Assembly: GCF_024713945.1 (NCBI RefSeq)
Contig: NC_134680.1
Location: 7,033,501-7,097,500 of the forward strand
Direction: 5' to 3'
From: Dermatophagoides farinae
Taxonomy: Eukaryota; Arthropoda; Arachnida; Sarcoptiformes; Pyroglyphidae
Length of the DNA: 64,000 nucleotides
Within the stretch, counting starts at the first letter, position 1. The number at the start of each line of letters is the position of its first letter. The translations under genes and the position numbers were made by a program. The notes beneath the pieces were generated by a model. The model was not told the DNA's origin, ran no database searches, and worked only from the letters and a program-made list of their open reading frames with translations. Positions 572 through 63,997 of this stretch are shown piece after piece.

Positions 572-16192
<15,621 letters not shown>

Positions 16193-52747: not shown

Positions 52748-53390
52748 ATAATTTATCGAGCCTAAGAAGAAAAAAATAATCATGTGCCCATGAAACTTTA
52801 TAAATTTGTAAAAACTCTCATAGACTCGTAAAATTACTGGAACATATTTTCTTGATCACTATTTTTCGAATCATGGTAAATTAATGTATTGTGTAAATCG
52901 ATATCGATCAACTTTATGATGAAGTTTGTTTTGTTAATAAATTCATGAAAGAAGTACAGATAAAGAATTCATCAAAAAATGAGTCAATATTTTAAATAAA
53001 AGATACAAGATGAACAAAATTGATATTGTAACAAGAACGGTTTGAGAATCTAGCGCCATAGTGCAATTTGCTGAAATGGGTGTTACCACGGCCACCCAAA
53101 ATTATTCGATTTGTTCCAATTGACGATCATCGTTCATCAATTGAGAAAATCATCATCAAGTACTTTTTGATGTCGGCAGAATCAATGAAATTCGGTTGTA
53201 TATTCGTCGTCGTCGTATTAGCAGACTCAATTTGAATCAAAAACTTGTCATTTCTTTTTTCTTTCCTTGTGATTTATTGACATTTGTTTTCTACATTCTT
53301 TTCTATATTTTCATGATAATCTACATACTCTTATTGCATACTTTATGTAATTCTTGCATGGTAACATCAAATTGGCACTATAACAAACCA

Positions 53391-53690
53391 TGGTGCATAC
53401 GATGCCATTGTTTTTTCAAAAGCAATGTCCGTCATTGTCTAGATCAGTCATTCTCAACCTTTTTTTGTTGCTACTGATTTGTGAACAATTTTTGTGCCAC
53501 GGCACAGGGGTTGAGAATGACTGGTCTAGATGGTCGCATGTTTTTTTCGATTCATGCGACGATACTGGTGACATCAGAATCAAAGCATTCGACGTTGAAT
53601 GTGATGCTTTCTATGATCAGATTGTTGCCAATCATACATTTTTGCTGTATAATGTGTTGGTATACAACAATGCTGATCTGATATTTGTTC
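53391..53690 (+). pseudogene. OB-fold (RPA70-like) protein fragment
   Basis: In the frame that continues into the downstream reverse-transcriptase fragment, the residues WSHVFFDSCDDTGDIR, KAFDVECDAFYDQIV and TFLLYNVLV resemble an OB-fold of the large replication protein A subunit (family pattern: D-x-S/T-G-E-I-R-x-x-A-F, then a Phe-rich strand). The MITE at 53445-53523 interrupts it. This is a weak, short match made from memory. It is probably a captured or pseudogenic fragment, not a gene. Confidence 0.4.
53445..53523. mobile_element. 79-bp hAT-type MITE with 8-bp target duplication
   Basis: Both ends carry the perfect 15-bp inverted terminal repeat CAGTCATTCTCAACC, resembling hAT/Charlie-like termini. 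The element is flanked by the perfect 8-bp direct repeat GTCTAGAT at 53437-53444 and 53524-53531. Eight-base duplications are characteristic of hAT transposases. There is no coding capacity, so it is a non-autonomous miniature element. Removing it and one duplication joins a continuous reading frame. Confidence 0.88.
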
Positions 53691-54106
53691 CAGAATGTCG
53701 ATCAGCGTTCGGCAATGCTAACATACCGATAAGCGAGCAAGAAGTGTTAGGTGCAATGAAAACCATGGACAGAAAACACAAAGCTCCCGGTGTGGACGGT
53801 TTTATCGGCGAAATCATTGGCCATTTCGTACTGGCCAATATAAAATTTGTCACAGCATTCTTCAACCATTGTCTGATGAATGGCCACTTTCCAGATGCAT
53901 GGAAAGTGGCAGTAATAAAATTTATTAACAAACCTGGTAAAGATAAAACAGACATCGGCAGCTATCGTCCAATCGAATTATTGTCTGTTTTTGGCAAGTT
54001 ATTAGAAAAAATACTTGTCGATATACTTACATTTGATTTGGAACAAAGACGATGTCTATTTGATAACCAGTATGGCTTTCGTAAACAAAAATCAACAATT
54101 GACGGG
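53691..54106 (+). mobile_element. Non-LTR retrotransposon reverse-transcriptase fragment
   Basis: About 138 codons of the RT fingers/palm region: KAPGVDGFIGEIIGHF, MNGHFPDAWKVAVIKFINKP, SYRPIELLSVFGKLLEKIL and NQYGFRKQKSTI. Order and spacing are as in LINE reverse transcriptases. It belongs to a different family from the 59-64 kb element. It lacks the endonuclease upstream and the YADD block downstream, and stops where the next LINE fragment begins (about 54107). Confidence 0.75.
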
Positions 54107-55619
54107 TAGTAGATCGCATCCATTATGGATAACCGACAAACAGGAATGAATCAGATCAAAATAGCCCAACTCAACACGAATCATTCTCCATCAGCGACAA
54201 CAGCATTTATCGATTTTTGTAATAATATGCGATTGAGTAGTCGTATATGATAAATGTTATAACCATGATCGGAAACTGTTGCTAATTCATGAATATCGGA
54301 AATTACGTGTTGATTATCGGAAACGTTTTGATGAACTTAAAGAGAATCATTTACGAAAAGAAATTTTTGGTGAAAACGATACCGATCATTACCAACGAAT
54401 GTGTCGACTTTTGAAAAATCACCAAATTGTGCCAGCATGAACATTTTCAAATAGTAGTGGTCCGCAAAATACTGTCGAAATATTGTTAAATGATTTATTC
54501 CCAGATGATACCTTATCAAGTGATACGGCACAACAAGCCAATATTCGAATGATGGTAAACAATTGGAAACAACAGCATGCTAATGTTAGGGGTAGCTTCA
54601 ATCCGGTATCGACTTTGGAATTGCTGAACATTATCAACAAGACGAAAAATGATAAAGCTCCTGGATATGACAACTTTTCTCCCATCATTTGTAAAAAAGT
54701 AATGGCTGTAGTAAATTCAACTTAAGAAAACAAAAACAAAAACAAAGCAAAAATCTTTTGTTGAAAATATGTATGGTTTATTCAAAGGTGGTATCAACAT
54801 TGAAAGACAAAAACAATAATTAATACAATACACACACGCACCCGAGCCACATCAAAAAACCGCGAAAACTAGCTGCGCTTGCTCAGGAAAGTTTTGTCTT
54901 CTAAGCAGGGCTCACTTCACGACAAATGGCCTTTTTCCCAGAAATTCTGGTTTTGATTATGAATGCGTGCCTCCGATTGTAATATTTCCCGTATATCTGG
55001 AAAATTTCCGTTGTAAAGATCATCCCAAAACCGGGCCGTCCAACTTATGATAAATCTAGCTGGACATAAAAAACGACAACCGTCACAGTCGAGATTAAAG
55101 TTCACTCGTCATTGTTATCACCATCATCATCATGTGCATAGTCATCATTGAGCATGTGCCTTCGCGCCCTTTTTTCTTGATCGCTGTTTGAGCAGGAGAG
55201 ATCGATATCATCATCATCATGGCTTTTCATCATCACCATCAACATCGTAAATGAATTTGTTGATACTTTTCTTGGCATTGTGATTATCATCGTGATGTTG
55301 TTATGTTTAGGTTTTTTTATTAATTATTTATTTTCTTGTATTAAATTATACTCAATAAAATCAAAGTTTATTTCAAACCGGCCAGTGATAAGAAGTTTTT
55401 TGACTATAGCAGCTATAGACCAATTGGTCTTCTTCCGATCTTGGCCAAATGTTTGGAAGCGGTAATGGCTAATCGTATCAAAAGTCACCTGGATGCAAAC
55501 TCCCCACTATCGATATACCAGTATGGATTCATGCAACGACGTTCAACTGAACACGCACTGCTGGAATTAAAATCAAAAATCGAATCCAATTTGAAAAATG
55601 AACAATTGGTTCAAGCATA
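54107..55619 (+). mobile_element. Mosaic, broken copy of the 59-64 kb LINE family
   Basis: Four pieces align in order with ORF2 of the intact element. 54107-54240 holds the end of ORF1 and the ORF2 start (QIKIAQLNTNHSPSATTAF). 54240-54716 covers residues about 334-487. 54926-55055 is FPEILVLIMNACLRL onward, with a stop. 55389-55619 is YRPIGLLPILAKCLEAVM onward. The endonuclease domain (ORF2 residues about 36-333) is deleted. Unrelated segments interrupt at 54717-54925 and 55056-55388. Frames are broken by stops, so the copy is dead. The sequence AATGGC flanks the first interruption on both sides, as expected for an insertion with target duplication. Confidence 0.82.
55056..55388. other. Foreign segment inside the broken LINE
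   Basis: Not part of the LINE. On the minus strand it reads as a short acidic ORF (DDDDIDLSCSNSDQEKRARR, ending in ...DDDGDNNDE, 55290-55105), possibly a captured C-terminal gene piece. The other interruption at 54717-54925 carries a minus-strand AATAAA near 54775. Their origin is not recognised. Confidence 0.35.
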
Positions 55620-55850
55620 AAATCCGTGATTCTCTTTATCTAATGAAAAGTATGTCGCAAACATACGAAATGTTTGAACACATTTAACCAATTTATTCAG
55701 TGGATTTCAATCATAATGGTCGATACATTTGTTCAAGTGGTAATGATCGCAAGGTTTTTTTAAATGGAAATTATTTTATTTCATCAAGAATGATGATCGG
55801 CAATGGCCAATCATTGAAAAACATCAATACAAAAATAATATCAAGGGATT
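55620..55850 (+). pseudogene. Possible WD40-repeat exon fragment
   Basis: After an acceptor-like TTTATTCAG at about 55693-55701, one frame reads VDFNHNGRYICSSGNDRKV, the shape of a WD repeat strand pair (x-F-x-x-x-G-x-Y-I-x-S-x-x-x-D-x-x-V). No second blade or in-frame neighbour is seen. Probably a stranded exon from a duplicated gene; weak support. Confidence 0.3.
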
Positions 55851-56023: not shown

Positions 56024-56075
56024 AGCGAAGCTCGTGACGGTTTTGCGTTGTCCCGGAGGTTAACCTAACCTAACC
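56024..56075. repeat. Partial hairpin module abutting (CCTAA)n
   Basis: AGCGAAGCTCGTGACGGTTT... ending TGTCCCGGAGG (56024-56059) is a partial copy of the module at 57159-57271. It runs into GTTAACCTAACCTAACC; the telomere-type pentamer is here in the opposite orientation (56062-56075). Confidence 0.7.
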
Positions 56076-56090
56076 ACTATCGTTACCTCA

Positions 56091-56799: not shown

Positions 56800-57158
56800 A
56801 TCGGACAACAATTCAAACGAAACTTTGTGATACTCCTTTGCGTGTTCAAAATTGGAATTTTCTTATATCTTAGCCGTGTCATGTGATGATTCGTTCATTA
56901 TTTTTTTTTATTTTTTTTTTGCTACTGTATCAATTTTTTTTTGATACATTTGAGGTTCATTTAAACCTCACGGTTGTCTTTCTAAATTTAAGGTTTATTT
57001 AAACCTCACTAGAATATCCATAGTTTTGTGGTATAACTATCAGTTATTGCCGGAATCGACTGTTTTGTGAATATTTATTTGTTGTTTTTTGATATTAATG
57101 CAATGAACTGCTCGGATATTTACACAATTATCGGTGGTCAAATTCCCGGGAGGACAAT
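56800..57158. other. AT-rich spacer between orphan ORF and hairpin module
   Basis: Contains T-runs (about 56904-56942) and two short direct copies of a motif, AGGTTCATTTAAACCT and AGGTTTATTTAAACCT (about 56953-57007), each nearly palindromic around TTTAAA. No gene supported. Confidence 0.45.
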
Positions 57159-57271
57159 CGAGCAAAACCTCACGAGCGAAGCTCGTGACGGTTTTGCGAT
57201 GTCCTGGAGGAGTGCCTTTCGAGCAAAACCTCACGAGCGAAGCGAGTGACGGTTTTGCGATGTCCCGGAGG
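57159..57271. repeat. Two tandem copies of a 52-bp hairpin module
   Basis: Copies at 57159-57210 and 57220-57271. Copy 1 contains the near-perfect inverted repeat AAAACC(-)TCACGAGC / GCTCGTGACGGTTTT around a GAA loop. Copy 2 runs directly into GGTTAGG repeats. Confidence 0.75.
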
Positions 57272-57418
57272 TTAGGTCGGTTAGGTTAGGTTTTTTTTTA
57301 ATCAGTTCTTCAAGTGATGGATCAAATAAAAATTATTATACGCTCGAATGTCTGGTATATTTTCTTCATAATGTTCAGGTTAGGTTAGGTTTTTTTTTTG
57401 GTTAGGTTAGGTTAGGTT

Positions 57419-57454
<36 letters not shown>
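57271..57454. repeat. Interstitial (TTAGG)n telomere-type tracts joined to T-runs
   Basis: Tracts: GGTTAGGTCGGTTAGGTTAGG ending at 57290 then nine T; GGTTAGGTTAGG ending at 57389 then ten T; GGTTAGG x4 overlapping at 57400-57421 then 33 T (57422-57454). TTAGG is the ancestral arthropod telomere unit. Read on the minus strand, each is an A-tail followed by CCTAACC. Confidence 0.85.
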
Positions 57455-57459
<5 letters not shown>

Positions 57460-57465
57460 TGAAAA

Positions 57466-57475
57466 ATTTTATTTG
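57466..57475 (-). terminator. Poly(A) signal before the 33-A tail
   Basis: On the minus strand, CAAATAAAAT occurs just upstream of the 33-nt A-run at 57454-57422, as expected for the 3' end of a reverse-transcribed polyadenylated RNA. Confidence 0.55.
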
Positions 57476-58490
57476 ATCAAATATCAGGGTTGGCGATGGC
57501 CAACCAAATAATAACAATTACAATGGTAATATATTCATGTATATCGAATAGAATCATAAAAAATAAAAAGAAAGAAAAAATTTAACATAAAAATAAAATT
57601 AAAAAAAGAAAAAGAAAGATATGGTTTCCATTTAATTTTCGCCGTTTTACACGTTGAATGCCAGTTGATGGAAGAGCCATGTTTTGCGCTATTCTTGATC
57701 TGGATATAGTTCATGATTATAAAAGTTTCAAATAATGCAGGTGACAGCAATATAACAGATGGAGGACGAAGATTGGGAATGATAATGGTGGTGATCGGTC
57801 AATGGCGATGATTGAAGATGGAGGATGGACACGGAAAAGGCACAAATCGGTGGTGAAAGACACAACAAGGGTCGACAGCTATTGCTGGATGTGGTGTTAA
57901 TTACCAAGGACCACTGTGTTTTGTCGATGGTGATTGAAGCAAATATTGGTAATGGCACACTAGTGTCGAGAAACTGGTGGCTCAGCTGATGATGGTCATT
58001 GATGTTGATAATGATTGAGAATAGATTCGTTGATGATGATGACGGTAATGGTGATGATCGGAAAAGATGGTATAACAATTTCACAACACTGAGAAACAAT
58101 AACCAATTTTCACTAGAAAGAATAAATGTCACAACAATCACAATGGTATGTTGGCATATAGTGAAAACCATAAGAAAAAATTTTAAAATTTTGGCAAAGT
58201 CACACACACAGCACAAAATTTGATTATAATTTGCTAATTTAGACTAGGTCTAATGAGTCGCAATATCTGCTTGTTTGTCGACGACTTAAATACAATTTTC
58301 TTCATTTTCTTGATTTTTCGAGATGTTGTTCGTCACCGAAATTAAGAGGCCAAAAGTGTTGATGACCATTAGAAATGTTGGCATATACTAAATATTCATG
58401 GTTGACTTTTTCTTTTTGTTGAAAGATGACTGATGATCATCACCAAAAGTCATGTCTAAAAATTCGAGATTTTTCTAGATCATGACTGGT
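57476..58490. other. Region upstream (minus strand) of the 33-A tail
   Basis: No confident gene. A minus-strand ORF at 58216-57728 (162 codons, rich in Ser/His/Ile) has no recognisable domain and is probably chance. It may be the 3' UTR or body of the retrotransposed unit that ends in the A-tail. Confidence 0.35.
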
Positions 58491-58496
58491 ATATGG

Positions 58497-58695
58497 TATA
58501 AATAGATGGTCTTGGCTGAGAAATTTTTCATTATACTTGGTGACAATCTTGCTGATAGGTCGACCATGCCATCTCTGCATTCACCATCGAACACTTAGAC
58601 ATCACCAGTCCTGACCGCGGCTGTCAATAGCTCTGCCATGGATGTCAACGAAACGCTTCTTGCAACCACCTGTTGACCATGATGACTTACAATGG
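58497..58695 (+). promoter_or_regulatory. TATA box and possible first exon of a small + strand transcript
   Basis: TATAAATAG (58497-58505) is followed about 60 nt later by short uORF-like ATGs and a strong donor AATGG|GTGAGTG at 58696. A matching acceptor TCTGCAG lies at 59124-59130. Spliced coding would be tiny. Pattern-based only. Confidence 0.3.
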
Positions 58696-58739
58696 GTGAG
58701 TGTATTTGTGTTTTATGTACATATATGTTTTTATGTGTT

Positions 58740-58985
58740 TTAACAATTAGTAGTAATAAATTATAGGATTTTTCAATTACCTAGGCTTATCATATTAATA
58801 TAGGATTATTCAATTGAACTAGGATTTTCAAATTTTAGGGTTAACAAATTTCAATGTATTTTGACAATCAATATTGACTATTAGGATTTTTCAATTGATA
58901 TAGGTCTATCTAATTTAACTAGGATTTTCATATTTAGGTTTATCAAATTATTTAGGATTAACAAATTTCAATTATTGACTAGTAT
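58740..58985. repeat. Degenerate TAGG-rich tandem repeat
   Basis: Several imperfect copies of a unit resembling TTAGGATTTTTCAATT / TTAGGGTTAACAAATTTCAAT, spaced about 100 bp for the longer match (about 58800-58880 versus about 58905-58985). Strongly AT-rich. Confidence 0.5.
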
Positions 58986-58997
58986 GTACCAATTGTT

Positions 58998-59011
58998 GTT
59001 TTTTTTTTTTT
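58998..59011. repeat. T-run, possible LINE A-tail (minus strand)
   Basis: A run of about 14 T reads as an A-run about 400 nt downstream of the LINE ORF2 stop codon on the minus strand. It is an alternative to the 57422-57454 run as the element's 3' end. Confidence 0.35.
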
Positions 59012-59355
59012 TAAAAATTATTAATTATCATTGATTTAAAATTTTCATTACGACAAATAACAAATGTATGTGTATAAAAAGATCACAGGTATGTCGTTGT
59101 CTATGTTAATGTTTCATTGTGAATCTGCAGCCAATGGCGGCCGTTTACGGTATGCCATCCCATAGCCATGGCGCATCAGTGAACAGATGGTGTGAATATT
59201 TCAGTAAAAACAAACATAAAAACGTGTAAAATCTATCGTGTGTGGTATTCAAATGTGTACTGTTCAGCTGATTGATTCGACTTGAAGGACATCATGGTCG
59301 TAATTTTTTCTTTCCTGAAATTAACATATTCAGTTCAGGTGGTTTGTTTATATCA

Positions 59356-59418
59356 CAGTTCGTTACAATCACAGCTGGTTGCTATGACGGTTGGTTACTA
59401 TCACAGTTGGTTGCTGTC
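59356..59418. repeat. Short minisatellite spanning the LINE ORF2 stop
   Basis: Variants of CACAGTTGGTTGCTATGA / CGGTTGGTTACTAT repeat three to four times with a 16-18 bp period. Confidence 0.55.
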
Positions 59419-62400
59419 TATGTTCATTGTGTTTGTTTGGCTACTGTTTTCACGATGCCGATTATTTCTATATGTGTCGACCAGCATGGCTAGTTGTTCA
59501 TAAAGAACAGCAGTAATTCTTATTCGCTCGGCTGGATTTGTTACATTTCGTTTTGTCACCATATAGTCGTTTCGAAGGCGTGCCGATAATTGACATTCAT
59601 TGATCATGTGTAGTACTGATTGATTTTCATGACCACAGGGGCATTTAGGATCGTCAATGAAGCCAAATCGTTTCAAATATTCCCCGAATTGGCCATGGCC
59701 GGTTAATGTCTGTGTAAGCCAAAAATTGATATATGGCCAGAATTGTCTTGCGTCTCCGACATTGGGACATATGGTCTTAATTGATGTGCCATATTTATCG
59801 AATCTGTATTGCCGGTCCCATATAACATGTGATGCACATGATTCCAATTTTTTAACAGTAACCATTGGTATTTGTTCATAATCGAAACCTGGCCGAACTC
59901 TAGCAGCTGACTTTAATGTCTTTTTCAGTTTGATTTGTTTTTCATCGGACCGGTCTACTCTTATCCATATAATACTGATATTTGTTGGCGTTGACTCGAC
60001 TATTTGCTTAGCCAAATTTGACAATTTATTATGGTCCTTCTTTTTTATGTGGTTAATGGCCCCGATGTTATTATTCAAAATGGTGATTGGTGCTGTACTA
60101 CTATATTTTTCTTTGCAGAAATTAACCGCCTTTAAAATGACAAAGAGATCGGCTTGTAAGTTTGAACAGAAGGTCGGCAATCGATGTGTTACGGTCCCGA
60201 TAAAATATGTCCCATTGAATAATTGAAAGCCGCATCCAATTCCGAATCTGGTTCTTATTATTTTGGTATACACTTGACAGTATGTTCTAGCAAATGATTG
60301 ACCGTGGTAAATAACTGGATACGTCGTCACATTGACCCTTGTCTCATCTGGTATATCCACAATCAAATCCTTTCCCCCGTGGTGGTATTTCCGGGTTATT
60401 CGTGCCAATGATACTTTTGCTTGTTCCATTATTTCAATATATAAAGGCACCATATCAGCAATAGCAGTAGTTGAAACAAAAGCTGCCGTTCGGTAAGATT
60501 TTGTTACTAGCTGCGCGATCGGACGTTGGAATTGTCGTAGCTCTTTCTGCATGTGAACATATGATGCTGCTCGACACCAGATTGCACATCCATATGTGAT
60601 TATCGGCACAATGATTGATTCATACAATCGTTTGATGATTTTTGATCCTAAACCGTATTTCATTCGTGCAAAGCCAAGTAATTGCCGGTATATTTTTGTT
60701 GCTTTGGTAATGGCATATCTTAGATGTGACCGAAAATCCATTTTCTTATCGATAATTACACCAAGAACTTTAGCCTCATCGCTAAAAACTAGATCATGTC
60801 CGTTGATGTTAATGGCCGGTATCGGAACAGGTCGAATTTTCCTCGAAATTGGAACCACTGTTGTTTTTTCGGATGCCAAGGTCAATTTGTTCTCGTTGCA
60901 CCAACTTGTTGCCATTGTTAACAATTGTTTAATGGATATTGCTAAATCGTCTGGTTTTTTGCTAACCACAACAGCAGTGATATCATCGGCATAAGCCTGA
61001 ATGTGCATGTTGGGCGGAAACCGATTCTTCAGGAATCCATCTATCACAATGTTCCAAAGTAGAGGACCTAAAATCGAACCTTGAACTGTTCCTTTATTGG
61101 TGGACTTGGAGCCGAAAACGCCACTATAATTCGTGATAACACGCCGGTCGTCCATATAGTTGATCATCAACTTTATCATATATGTTGGAATGGCCATATC
61201 GATTAATTGTTTGATAATACCTGGTGGCCAAGCATTATTAAAAGCTCCTTTTATGTCTAACGATACCAGTGCTACTAGTTCTTTGTTTTTCAAATTGGTT
61301 TCAATTTTGGTTTTCAATTTCAGCAAAGCATGTTCGGTTGAGCGACATTGCATGAAACCGTATTGGTATACTGATAACGGACAGTTCGCTTCCAAGTGGC
61401 TTTTAATCCGATTGGCCATAACCGCTTCCAAAGCTTTAGCCAGAATCGGGAGAAGACCGATTGGTCTGTAGCTACTGGATTTGTCATATGTTGGTCGACC
61501 AGGTTTTGGGATAATTTTCACCACAGATATTTTCCAGACATATGGAAAGTAAGATAGCCGGAGACAGGCATTCATAATTGCCACCAGTGTTTCTGGAAAG
61601 AAGGCCATGATCTTTTTACAAATTATGGGCGAAAAATTATCGTAACCAGGAGCTTTGTCGTTTTTGGTTTTGTTGATGATATTGAAAAGTTCCAAAGTGC
61701 TCACTGGATTAAAGCCATTTCTGATGCCGGCATGTTCTTGTTTCCAATTGTCAACCATATTCCGAACGTTTGCCTGTTCAGTAGTGTCATTAATTATCAC
61801 ATCATCGGGAAAAAGATCCTTGAGCAGCGTATCAACCGTATCTTGTGGGCCATTACTATCAGAGAAGGTTCTGGCTGGAACAATTTTTTGGTTTTTCAAG
61901 AGCCGGCACATGCGTTGATAGTGGTCATTATCATTTACACCGAAGATTTCTTTTCGCAACTGGATTTCTTTTAGTGTTTCAACACGTTTTCGATATTCCA
62001 AACGTAAATTCCGGTATTCGTCAATCATTTGCGCTTTCCGAACTTGATTATAACATTTGTTGATTTTACGATAAATTTTCTTTTGCTCATTGGTCAATCT
62101 GTTCAATTCATCGTCGCGTGACCATGGCAACCTTCGTTTCCTATTTCTATTGTATTTGACAAGATTTTCTTCACACGCCCACCGGATTGATGATATGAAA
62201 GCATTTACAGTTGCATCCAAGTCCGCTACATATTCGATGTTTTCAATGTAAGATGGGCTGACATCATAATCGTTAAGATGATTTTCAAGACATTGGGCCC
62301 ATGTTTCCCAGTCAGCATCTGATGTGTTCCAGCGTACAGTGGATGGTGGAATTTTCGGCAATTCATAATTTTTATTTATATCAAAAACAATAGCTCGGTG

Positions 62401-63060
62401 ATCACTCATTTGTATATCATCAATGACATGCCAGTTATTTATCATGTTGGAAGTTGACATGGATGCTAAGGTTAGGTCAATATGTGAAGTAAGCCGGTTG
62501 TTGCCACGAATGGTATCAAATGTTGGCTTGTTGGAGTTGTTCATCACCTCCAGATTGCATTGTATAATGGCTGCCAGAAGTTCATCACCATGCTTGTCGT
62601 TGTAGTCAGCCCCCCAATATCTGTTATTTGCGTTCATATCGCCGGCAATAATAAAATCACGACCATTGGCGTAATTAGCCACGTTCGTTATATTGTTTAA
62701 AATCGGAATGATAGAATCGACTGGGTGTGCATAGACAGAGACGACTATCAAATTGTTAAAATCACATACAATAAAATCCGGGGTCGATAAATGTGAGATA
62801 ATGATTGGTTGGATTTTTGGATTGAGAATGCACATACAAGCTCGTACCCGTTGATTGTTGTCGACCGGCGCAACGAACATGGGACAGAGACGATTAGGAA
62901 TGTTTGGAAGTCCCTGTTTTATTGGTGGTTCCGATATGATCGCAATATCTATGTTTTTGCTGTTACAATAATTTATAAAAGCTGTGGTCGCAGATGGTGA
63001 GTGGTTCGTATTGAGCTGGGCAAATTTAATCTGGTTCACTGTTTGTCGATGATTATCCAT
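59401..63060 (-). CDS. LINE ORF2: endonuclease, reverse transcriptase, C-terminal zinc knuckle (R1-clade-like)
   Basis: Intact ORF of 1219 aa. Residues 1-230 are an AP-type endonuclease: KFAQLNTNHSPSATTAF, IDIAIISEPP, AGDMNANNRYWG, SHIDLTLAS and SDHRAIVFD (Asp220/His221). Residues about 430-780 are the reverse transcriptase: KAPGYDNFSPIICK, the SSYRPIGLLPILAKALE block, VSLDIKGAFNNA with Asp602, GTVQGSILGPLLWN, and the catalytic YADD at 690-693. Near residue 1160 a CPCGHENQSVLHMINEC zinc knuckle follows. The N-terminal NLN-like start and the C-terminal C-x-C...H...C motif are typical of the R1/TRAS/SART clade. It starts eight bases before the end of ORF1's stop. No internal stop or frameshift is seen, so the copy may be recently active. 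Confidence 0.93.
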   Translation of the reverse strand: MDNHRQTVNQIKFAQLNTNHSPSATTAFINYCNSKNIDIAIISEPPIKQGLPNIPNRLCPMFVAPVDNNQRVRACMCILNPKIQPIIISHLSTPDFIVCDFNNLIVVSVYAHPVDSIIPILNNITNVANYANGRDFIIAGDMNANNRYWGADYNDKHGDELLAAIIQCNLEVMNNSNKPTFDTIRGNNRLTSHIDLTLASMSTSNMINNWHVIDDIQMSDHRAIVFDINKNYELPKIPPSTVRWNTSDADWETWAQCLENHLNDYDVSPSYIENIEYVADLDATVNAFISSIRWACEENLVKYNRNRKRRLPWSRDDELNRLTNEQKKIYRKINKCYNQVRKAQMIDEYRNLRLEYRKRVETLKEIQLRKEIFGVNDNDHYQRMCRLLKNQKIVPARTFSDSNGPQDTVDTLLKDLFPDDVIINDTTEQANVRNMVDNWKQEHAGIRNGFNPVSTLELFNIINKTKNDKAPGYDNFSPIICKKIMAFFPETLVAIMNACLRLSYFPYVWKISVVKIIPKPGRPTYDKSSSYRPIGLLPILAKALEAVMANRIKSHLEANCPLSVYQYGFMQCRSTEHALLKLKTKIETNLKNKELVALVSLDIKGAFNNAWPPGIIKQLIDMAIPTYMIKLMINYMDDRRVITNYSGVFGSKSTNKGTVQGSILGPLLWNIVIDGFLKNRFPPNMHIQAYADDITAVVVSKKPDDLAISIKQLLTMATSWCNENKLTLASEKTTVVPISRKIRPVPIPAININGHDLVFSDEAKVLGVIIDKKMDFRSHLRYAITKATKIYRQLLGFARMKYGLGSKIIKRLYESIIVPIITYGCAIWCRAASYVHMQKELRQFQRPIAQLVTKSYRTAAFVSTTAIADMVPLYIEIMEQAKVSLARITRKYHHGGKDLIVDIPDETRVNVTTYPVIYHGQSFARTYCQVYTKIIRTRFGIGCGFQLFNGTYFIGTVTHRLPTFCSNLQADLFVILKAVNFCKEKYSSTAPITILNNNIGAINHIKKKDHNKLSNLAKQIVESTPTNISIIWIRVDRSDEKQIKLKKTLKSAARVRPGFDYEQIPMVTVKKLESCASHVIWDRQYRFDKYGTSIKTICPNVGDARQFWPYINFWLTQTLTGHGQFGEYLKRFGFIDDPKCPCGHENQSVLHMINECQLSARLRNDYMVTKRNVTNPAERIRITAVLYEQLAMLVDTYRNNRHRENSSQTNTMNIDSNQL

Positions 63061-63997
63061 AGTGGATACGGTCTATTACCCGTTTCAGTTGCTTTTGAAA
63101 GACCGGACACAAGTTGTCATTTGCCATATGGGTCGGTACGTGTTTAATACGATTTTTATAGCAATTGATACATGCCGGTTCATTCCTCCTATTGGGACAA
63201 TCAGCAAAATCATGTGCATCAGCGCAGTATGGACATACTGGTTGTGGTTCCCGACAATCAGCAGCATGATGGTGAAAGCCATAACAATTGTAGCATTGAT
63301 GCAAAGGATTTAAGTCCTCGGCATGTACATAAGAATAGTCAATGTTGACTCTTCCGCTCATTTTGTTAATGATAATATCTCTGATTCCAGAGTCGACCCG
63401 AAGCCCATAGTTCCAGAATTTAGTTGGTTGTTTGTTTCTTCGGTCAAAGCATATTTCCATACAGTTTCCGAGTTCCAGATTTTGTTCTTCCATATAATTT
63501 TTAATTAACACATTAAAGGAGCCAATCATGTCCGGAATATCTTCTTTTTTGATATCGACACGCACACCTTTTAGATATATAATCGGGTTTCGTTTACGTT
63601 GGTCTTCAGCAATGAAATCTTTATCTTTCCGAACCAGTTCATCAAATTTCTTTTTATTATCTTCTGTTGCAAATTTAACCATGAATTTTCCTTTGGATAA
63701 GGCAGCTGTCTCTTTAATAACAATCCCATGTGCCGCCGGAATAATTTTGTTGGCCAAGGCTCTTCTTGTCTGTTCAGCATCTTCATTGTTTGGCATAGAA
63801 ATCACCGTGCCTAGCAACGGTTCTTTATTCGCCACCGATTTCTTGACGACATCGGCAAACGTGCTCGATCTAGTTTCAATTATTGGATTTTCACTTGTTG
63901 CTTCGAATTTTTTAGCGAATTTGTCGATTGTTTCTTTCATGCACTTTAATTGTTCGTAGATGGCAGCGTTGTTTGTTTTTTCCCTGTTGGCTGGCAT
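63053..63997 (-). CDS. LINE ORF1: gag-like protein with three zinc knuckles
   Basis: 314 codons from the ATG at 63997; the frame is open to the window edge, so the true start could lie outside. The N-terminal half is charged and helical. A central RRM-like/association region follows (KFMVKFATEDNKKKF, YLKGVRVDIKKEDIP). The C-terminal part carries CCHC knuckles CYNCYGFHHHAADC and CPYCADAHDFADC, and a third Cys/His cluster beginning CINCYKNR. This matches ORF1 proteins of R1-clade LINEs, which bind element RNA and target the particle to chromatin. It overlaps ORF2 by 8 nt (ATGGATAA), suggesting coupled translation of ORF2 after ORF1 termination. Confidence 0.88.
   Translation of the reverse strand: MPANREKTNNAAIYEQLKCMKETIDKFAKKFEATSENPIIETRSSTFADVVKKSVANKEPLLGTVISMPNNEDAEQTRRALANKIIPAAHGIVIKETAALSKGKFMVKFATEDNKKKFDELVRKDKDFIAEDQRKRNPIIYLKGVRVDIKKEDIPDMIGSFNVLIKNYMEEQNLELGNCMEICFDRRNKQPTKFWNYGLRVDSGIRDIIINKMSGRVNIDYSYVHAEDLNPLHQCYNCYGFHHHAADCREPQPVCPYCADAHDFADCPNRRNEPACINCYKNRIKHVPTHMANDNLCPVFQKQLKRVIDRIHYG

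Follow-up and report, generated by a model that had tools for sequence, protein, structure and literature searches.

Does the chromosome end of a mite harbour LINEs that insert specifically into its telomeric repeats? The question is raised by a stretch of 64,000 nt of the Dermatophagoides farinae genome (hereafter the window, C4:7033501-7097500) in which, 27 kb from the end of the 7,117,990-nt contig C4, A-tails run directly into units of the telomere motif. The main known examples of chromosome ends made of transposon stacks come from silkworms and fruit flies. Searches of 62,435,336 bases in 22 contigs indicate that the locus very probably belongs to a TRAS-like system of telomere-targeting LINEs that also has TART-like traits, the label TRAS-like being given by endonuclease and target. 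The three window tails would then be the most internal portion of a chromosome end composed of stacked (TTAGG)n-inserting non-LTR retrotransposons.

The window element and its 3' end

On the minus strand a run of 33 A at 57454-57422 is followed by the 22 nt CCTAACCTAACCTAACCTAACC at 57421-57400 and then by ten A at 57399-57390, with CCTAACCTAACC directly after. The sequence-only reading had described three A-runs (33, 10 and 9 nt), each meeting CCTAACC at 57271-57454, and an AATAAA ahead of the longest; the former proved exact to the base and the latter was confirmed at 57473-57468. The short tails had also been taken as stacked, repeated or truncated insertions, and this requires some refinement. 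The A10 seems to be a remnant of which only the tail is left, and the A9 closes an insert of about 80 nt (Table 1) for which no second full match was seen in the loci examined and no source was found; this insert is perhaps a foreign RNA copied in trans.

Table 1. Features of the window (positions of the 64,000-nt stretch).
Feature	Position	Strand	Basis
ORF1, gag-like, CCHC zinc knuckles	63053..63997	-	314-aa open frame; knuckle positions aa 235 and aa 255
ORF2 (1219 aa) with APE-type endonuclease, reverse transcriptase and a CCHC at the C terminus	59401..63060	-	Pfam, PDB match, motifs
3' UTR of the window element, internal A-run near 59011	57455..59400	-	alignment to distal copy
3' hairpin GGTTGGC-CATC-GCCAACC	57488..57505	-	model match of 45.1 bits at 57455-57515
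AATAAA polyadenylation signal	57468..57473	-	sequence; last base 13 nt ahead of A33
A33 tail of the window element, adjoining CCTAACC	57422..57454	-	sequence
Telomeric repeat remnants (CCTAA)n enclosing the inner A10 tail (57390-57399)	57378..57421	-	sequence
Insert of ~80 nt (83 nt at 57300-57382), A9 (57291-57299), then CCTAACCTAACC	57279..57377	-	sequence
Palindromic subtelomeric repeat, base of the stack	56913..57270	-	50 genome matches
Older degenerate telomeric-LINE 3' end with hairpin	55755..55845	-	model R1, 54 bits at 55762-55822
Broken family A-type ORF2 pieces, opposite strand	54926..55611	+	tblastn against the window ORF2

The element that ends in the A33 tail has two reading frames. 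ORF1, whose 5' end may lie beyond the window edge, matched no Pfam family at E 0.001 (DUF5074 only, at 0.065). ORF2 matched RVT_1 (8.1e-35) and Exo_endo_phos_2 (1.5e-18) and carries PTFDTIRG, GDMNA, SDHRA and CCHC motifs. The best PDB match of its endonuclease is that of TRAS1 (1wdu, E 1.3e-24, against 1.2e-7 for the R1Bm endonuclease, 2ei9); PTFDTIRG is common to the window ORF2 and TRAS1, and R1Bm has PTFSTANG and then a four-residue gap. For the family C endonuclease 1wdu is again the best match (1.1e-25). General Pfam scans of the element proteins found endonuclease and reverse transcriptase families only; a Myb-like domain is named for TRAS Pol in an excerpt of PMC5537684.

That this LINE and the tails belong together had been inferred, with 59011 as an alternative 3' end. 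A second copy of the same family (A), truncated in ORF2, is found some 18 kb further out on C4 (C4Rend 7247-9222) and agrees at 99.5% over 1983 columns from the end of ORF2 to the A tail; a second alignment of the same pair gave 98.97% over 1558 nt. Since the distal copy matches through to the tail, the 3' end of the element is at 57454. The link is thereby upheld and an end at 59011 is ruled out, as the distal copy continues through that A-run.

The inner side of the stack is formed by a palindromic subtelomeric repeat. Of its 50 matches, 49 are no more than 55 kb from a contig end, and the remaining one is at an internal joint in C5. Units of this palindrome recur in the 3' UTRs of families C, C2 and F, and more weakly in B', and the subtelomeric repeat is therefore probably an old LINE remnant. 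Further in, the degenerate 3' end matches that of element B2 at C10R at 81%, and the broken ORF2 pieces have amino acid identities of 77% (55375-55611) and 91% (54926-55060) by tblastn. A small inverted GGTTAGGTTAGG piece at 56064-56076 adjoins another copy of the palindromic repeat. The subtelomeric part of the window also holds a plus-strand ORF (53390-54109) that matches RVT_1 only weakly (26.9 bits, under the cut-off); this is a decayed LINE piece.

Position, orientation and phase across the genome

The junction pattern is far beyond chance: A10CCTAACCTAA occurs exactly at 35 places in the genome (11 forward and 24 reverse) against 0 + 1 for the control read backwards, and CCTAACCTAACCTAA gave 989 + 697 against 33 + 21. 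Within 55 kb of a contig end lie 34 of the 35, the exception being C5:2827908, and 32 of these 34 have the 3' end inward (forward at left ends, reverse at right), the tails at C8:9920 and C9:3580433 being of opposite polarity. The other distinguishable phases, A10CTAACC and A10TAACC, were found at 0 and 0 places in the genome (one backward control gave 1). Of the five phases, three cannot be told apart, all reading A-CC, and the chance of all 35 falling among them under random phase is (3/5)^35, or about 2e-8, an estimate which treats copies as independent although they are not fully so. The junctions had been likened to those of both TRAS and SART. The TRAS orientation stands, with its 35 places; the SART orientation, A10N{0,3}GGTTAGGTTAG, has 0 places in the genome and this half of the comparison falls away.

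Further evidence came from a search for relatives of ORF2, in which 38 of 125 candidates were scored so that all counts are lower bounds. At least 45 rows were obtained, at least 39 of them with identity of 38% or more (seven of the 39 being second pieces of elements already counted). Within 55 kb of contig ends lie 37 of those 39, and the other two are an inverted pair in C5. Among the candidates scored, 36 of the 37 terminal rows share one polarity, C4:35754 being opposite, and 17 of the 22 rows that cover at least 1100 residues of ORF2 have no internal stop. Where checked, LINE copies have a 3' end of poly(A)-CCTAA and lie within terminal TTAGG tracts of contigs, as had been expected.

A further row, at 32%, is terminal, and five at 29-30% are at least 71 kb from any end. 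Three of these five internal LINEs have neither CCTAACC nor a GGCCAT..GCC hairpin core within 2.4-3.0 kb past the matched end, their exact 3' ends not having been located, and one of the three (L049) gave weak matches to the hairpin model, of 20.0-24.5 bits against 45-54 bits in the window. These data bear on the idea that ordinary dispersed LINEs lie beside interstitial telomere repeats by chance. Some telomere-like repeats are indeed internal, among the first 100 matches listed, as that idea would have it, but it is contradicted by the terminal position of 34 of 35 junctions and of the ORF2 rows, and the three internal LINEs without motif or core speak against it as well; we give it almost no credence.

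Within contigs, at C5:2827256-2832875 and C9:3577876-3580871, tails or ORF2 pieces and subtelomeric repeats lie head to head. These internal telomere-to-telomere joints are either scaffolding mis-joins or chromosome fusions.

Stacks, fused joints and repeated ends

Elements were found by the tail-junction and ORF2 searches at 14 of the 20 ends of C1-C10, and by the same searches no element at the other six; the contig ends contain N stretches and possible mis-joins. Most chromosome ends of the assembly carry stacks of several LINE families sitting in TTAGG. Fifteen open frames picked from the sequence examined fall into six ORF2 families, with identities of 80% within B, 83-99% within B', 73% within C/C2, 73% within E/F and 74% within D, A standing separate; between family groups identity is 37-54%. 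The earlier proposal of one LINE behind the tails therefore holds as to a telomere-linked LINE and fails as to its being a single one. At the right end of C4, read inward, about 770 nt of CCTAA are followed by a 5'-truncated B' element, A37 and about 400 nt of CCTAA, then by the truncated A copy, A40 and about 190 nt of CCTAA, and innermost by an additional stretch, a B'-type element (83-87% to B'), an N stretch and the window element. The left end of C7 (46.5 kb, the first 2.5 kb being N) has five stacked bodies in one direction. At the left end of C4, positions 1-2500 (L037) begin with inverted TTAGG, followed by about 540 nt of mixed CCGAA/CCTAA and an N stretch, possibly a mis-oriented end piece or a variant motif.

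Several bodies are fused directly. On C7 left a family C 3' UTR stops within the hairpin loop and is joined to the 5' region of C2, and an F-type 3' UTR breaks off some 130 nt ahead of the hairpin and is joined to B. Three C bodies about 9.7 kb apart form a tandem on C4 left; between these, and between the bodies of a pair on C3 right, there is no hairpin, A-CCTAA tail or array of three or more units, and each 3' UTR has a single internal piece, two to three CCTAA units long. At locus L002 the last 148 nt of a D-type 3' UTR are of E type (98.6%). We read the fused joints as template jumping by the reverse transcriptase, recombination being possible. On C7 a copy of B lacks an A tail and runs directly into telomere repeat, (CCTAA)82.

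The telomeric stretch that follows a tail is mostly short. For 45 distinct tails with 10 A or more in the sequence examined (a count that leaves out tail-less copies such as B on C7), the median was 19 nt under a strict definition, with 37 of 45 at 50 nt or less and 6 of 45 above 100 nt, and 23 nt under a loose one, with 34 of 45 and 8 of 45 respectively. This favours insertion near the chromosome end without deciding between insertion and addition to the end. Elements might attach to the chromosome terminus itself in the style of HeT-A and TART, by endonuclease-independent priming from the telomere 3' end, and not by nicking the array. The short stretches, the near-uniform polarity, the head-to-tail stacks and the fused joints would all suit such attachment, whereas the TRAS1-like endonuclease with its catalytic motifs kept, the single fixed phase expected as the product of a TT^AGG nick, and the repeats of more than 100 nt after six (strict) or eight (loose) of the 45 tails argue for nicking within the array. 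We consider attachment to the terminus unlikely, though a reading to be reckoned with.

It might also be supposed that the stacks spread mainly by subtelomeric recombination or duplication, with little retrotransposition. Near-identical blocks do occur on different ends (C7 and C4, 98.4% over 8.2 kb), and C4 has a tandem of 9.6 kb with 94% agreement. Against this, tail lengths vary from place to place (10-42 nt), 5' truncations differ, different families alternate and the 3' junctions share one common phase. Spread of this kind is improbable as the main process.

A 3' hairpin is common to families A, B, C2, E and F, with a variant form in B'; for family D its own 3' end was not seen in the sequence examined. 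The stem closes on GGCCA..GCC, about 14-47 nt ahead of the tail. Sequences with this core before a tail were picked by script, giving 25 distinct ones, and the inner three pairs are fixed because selection was by the core; the outer pairs have two-sided changes in three of four. Over all seven pairs 94.3% of cells are paired, against a mean of 86.1% in shuffles, of which 0 of 500 reach 94.3%; hairpin controls slid along the sequence gave 19-57%. Cells changed on both sides number 13, against 4.3 in shuffles. Two of the five measures were not above shuffles, namely pairs with two-sided change (104/500) and further pair types (338/500). The B' hairpin, GGCGGC-CATT-GCTGCC, is outside the core filter and was seen by eye in L001 and L009. 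The 3' hairpin is presumably a recognition signal for the reverse transcriptase.

At the other end of the elements, a 5' segment has a second copy within the 3' UTR in five of the six elements in which both regions were compared, and the two copies are identical in three: E (433/433), B2 (309/309) and C (250/250). The copies agree at 293/299 in B on C7 and at 356/357 in B' on C3, where a longer gapped alignment gives 730/807. A repeat in every element is ruled out by C2 on C7, which has no detectable one. For the window element the part of ORF1 within the window gave 0 matches to the 3' UTR, the 5' UTR lying outside this comparison, and for family D, compared across copies, a 5' segment and a D-type 3' UTR at another place are 77% similar. 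In E and B2 the repeat begins at the 5' end of the insertion, directly after telomere repeat (in B2 after a C run), and in C about 10 nt past it; the 5' copy of B on C7 is joined directly to the 3' UTR of another element, and that of B' on C3 is the only copy where two bodies meet. In the 5' segments of B, C and E on C7 left (L040-L044) a motif like CCTAGTGTTATGCTG lies near the start of the 5' repeat and may be a promoter or initiator.

Between insertions the segment can diverge strongly. C on C7 and C on C4 agree at only 76% in the segment against 98.4% in the surrounding blocks, and the E segment at 85% with L002 and 74% with L007, whereas B on C7 and L015 agree at 267/267 and B' on C3 and C4 at 356/357. 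The rule that copies within an element are always closer than copies between elements is true for C and E and false for B and B'. Renewal of one repeat copy from the other is therefore suggested for C and E and not shown for B and B'.

A proposed mechanism and its relation to known systems

A TERT gene is present at C1:166455 (847-aa ORF; Telomerase_RBD 3.9e-16, RVT_1 1.8e-13, FADD), and an active telomerase is presumed. In the mechanism that we propose, the ORF2 endonuclease would nick TT^AGG on the G-rich strand, or a 3' end ...GGTT that is already there would be used, and the element RNA, gripped via its 3' hairpin and A tail, would be reverse-transcribed from that TTAGG-strand primer. Priming at either position would join the tail to CCTAACC and turn the 5' end of the element towards the chromosome end. 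Telomerase may then add TTAGG distally and so provide the next landing site, new elements landing mostly near the previous one. Fused joints would probably arise when the reverse transcriptase leaves one RNA at its 5' end and jumps to the 3' region of a second one, and the copy of the 5' segment in the 3' UTR could let an element eroded at its end regain 5' end and promoter. By these steps the elements may contribute to telomere length.

The closest known system is TRAS1 of Bombyx mori, an R1-type LINE; insertion sites of TRAS and SART in TTAGG repeats are given in an excerpt of PMC7265360. TRAS1 and the mite elements share the TTAGG target, two ORFs with zinc knuckles and the presence of TERT; 1wdu is the closest endonuclease structure to the mite ORF2, and the mite A(n)-CCTAACC junction is what would be expected from a TT^AGG nick (derived here from the nick site in the same excerpt). 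The mite system differs in being that of a chelicerate, in having six families in essentially one orientation with no SART-like partner found, and in its 5'/3' repeats and fused tandems. It also has 5'-truncated copies, whereas the available part of PMC4700185 reports only full-length elements as identified at Bombyx telomeres. SART1, likewise a TTAGG-specific LINE, requires its own 3' UTR and poly(A), and its tail joins AGG (both from the excerpt of PMC7265360). It thus has the opposite orientation, with the tail on AGG, of which there are 0 places in the mite genome.

With TART, HeT-A and TAHRE the mite elements share head-to-tail stacks in one direction and a long 3' UTR, and their repeated 5' segment resembles the perfect non-terminal repeats which, together with a long 3' UTR, an excerpt of PMC5537684 describes for TART. 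The Drosophila elements are Jockey-type and attach to ends in a genus with no telomerase and no TTAGG, whereas the mite retains TERT and has TTAGG at contig ends. A bolder proposal, which we put forward tentatively as a possibility, is that a transposon telomere like that of Drosophila arose independently in a chelicerate, which kept telomerase. Its odds are slightly lowered by B and B', in which copies within an element are not always the closer ones. Several TRAS-like families with LTR-like 5'/3' copies would renew these mutually, the reverse transcriptase would jump from RNA to RNA so that one event adds a fused chain, and telomerase would supply only short TTAGG landing pads.

Retrotransposons in telomeres that keep short repeats are listed, in the available part of PMC10088271, for a few insects, the anole lizard, a fungus, an alga, rotifers and Giardia, with no arachnid in that part, and among the open-licence papers listed by the searches there is no report of telomere-specific LINEs in mites or other arachnids. 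In the mite system a TRAS-like endonuclease and target are combined with TART-like repeated ends and stacking, in a class without such a report among the papers listed. D. farinae is reported, in an excerpt of PMC5805368, to be without a piRNA pathway, so that how its telomeric elements are controlled is a separate question. Both the hairpin common to the families and the fused joints lend themselves to testing, and the repeated ends are a possible answer to end erosion. The mite unites silkworm traits (TTAGG-specific insertion beside TERT) with fruit fly traits (head-to-tail stacks and repeated ends), and could therefore show the passage from a telomerase-based to a transposon-based chromosome end.
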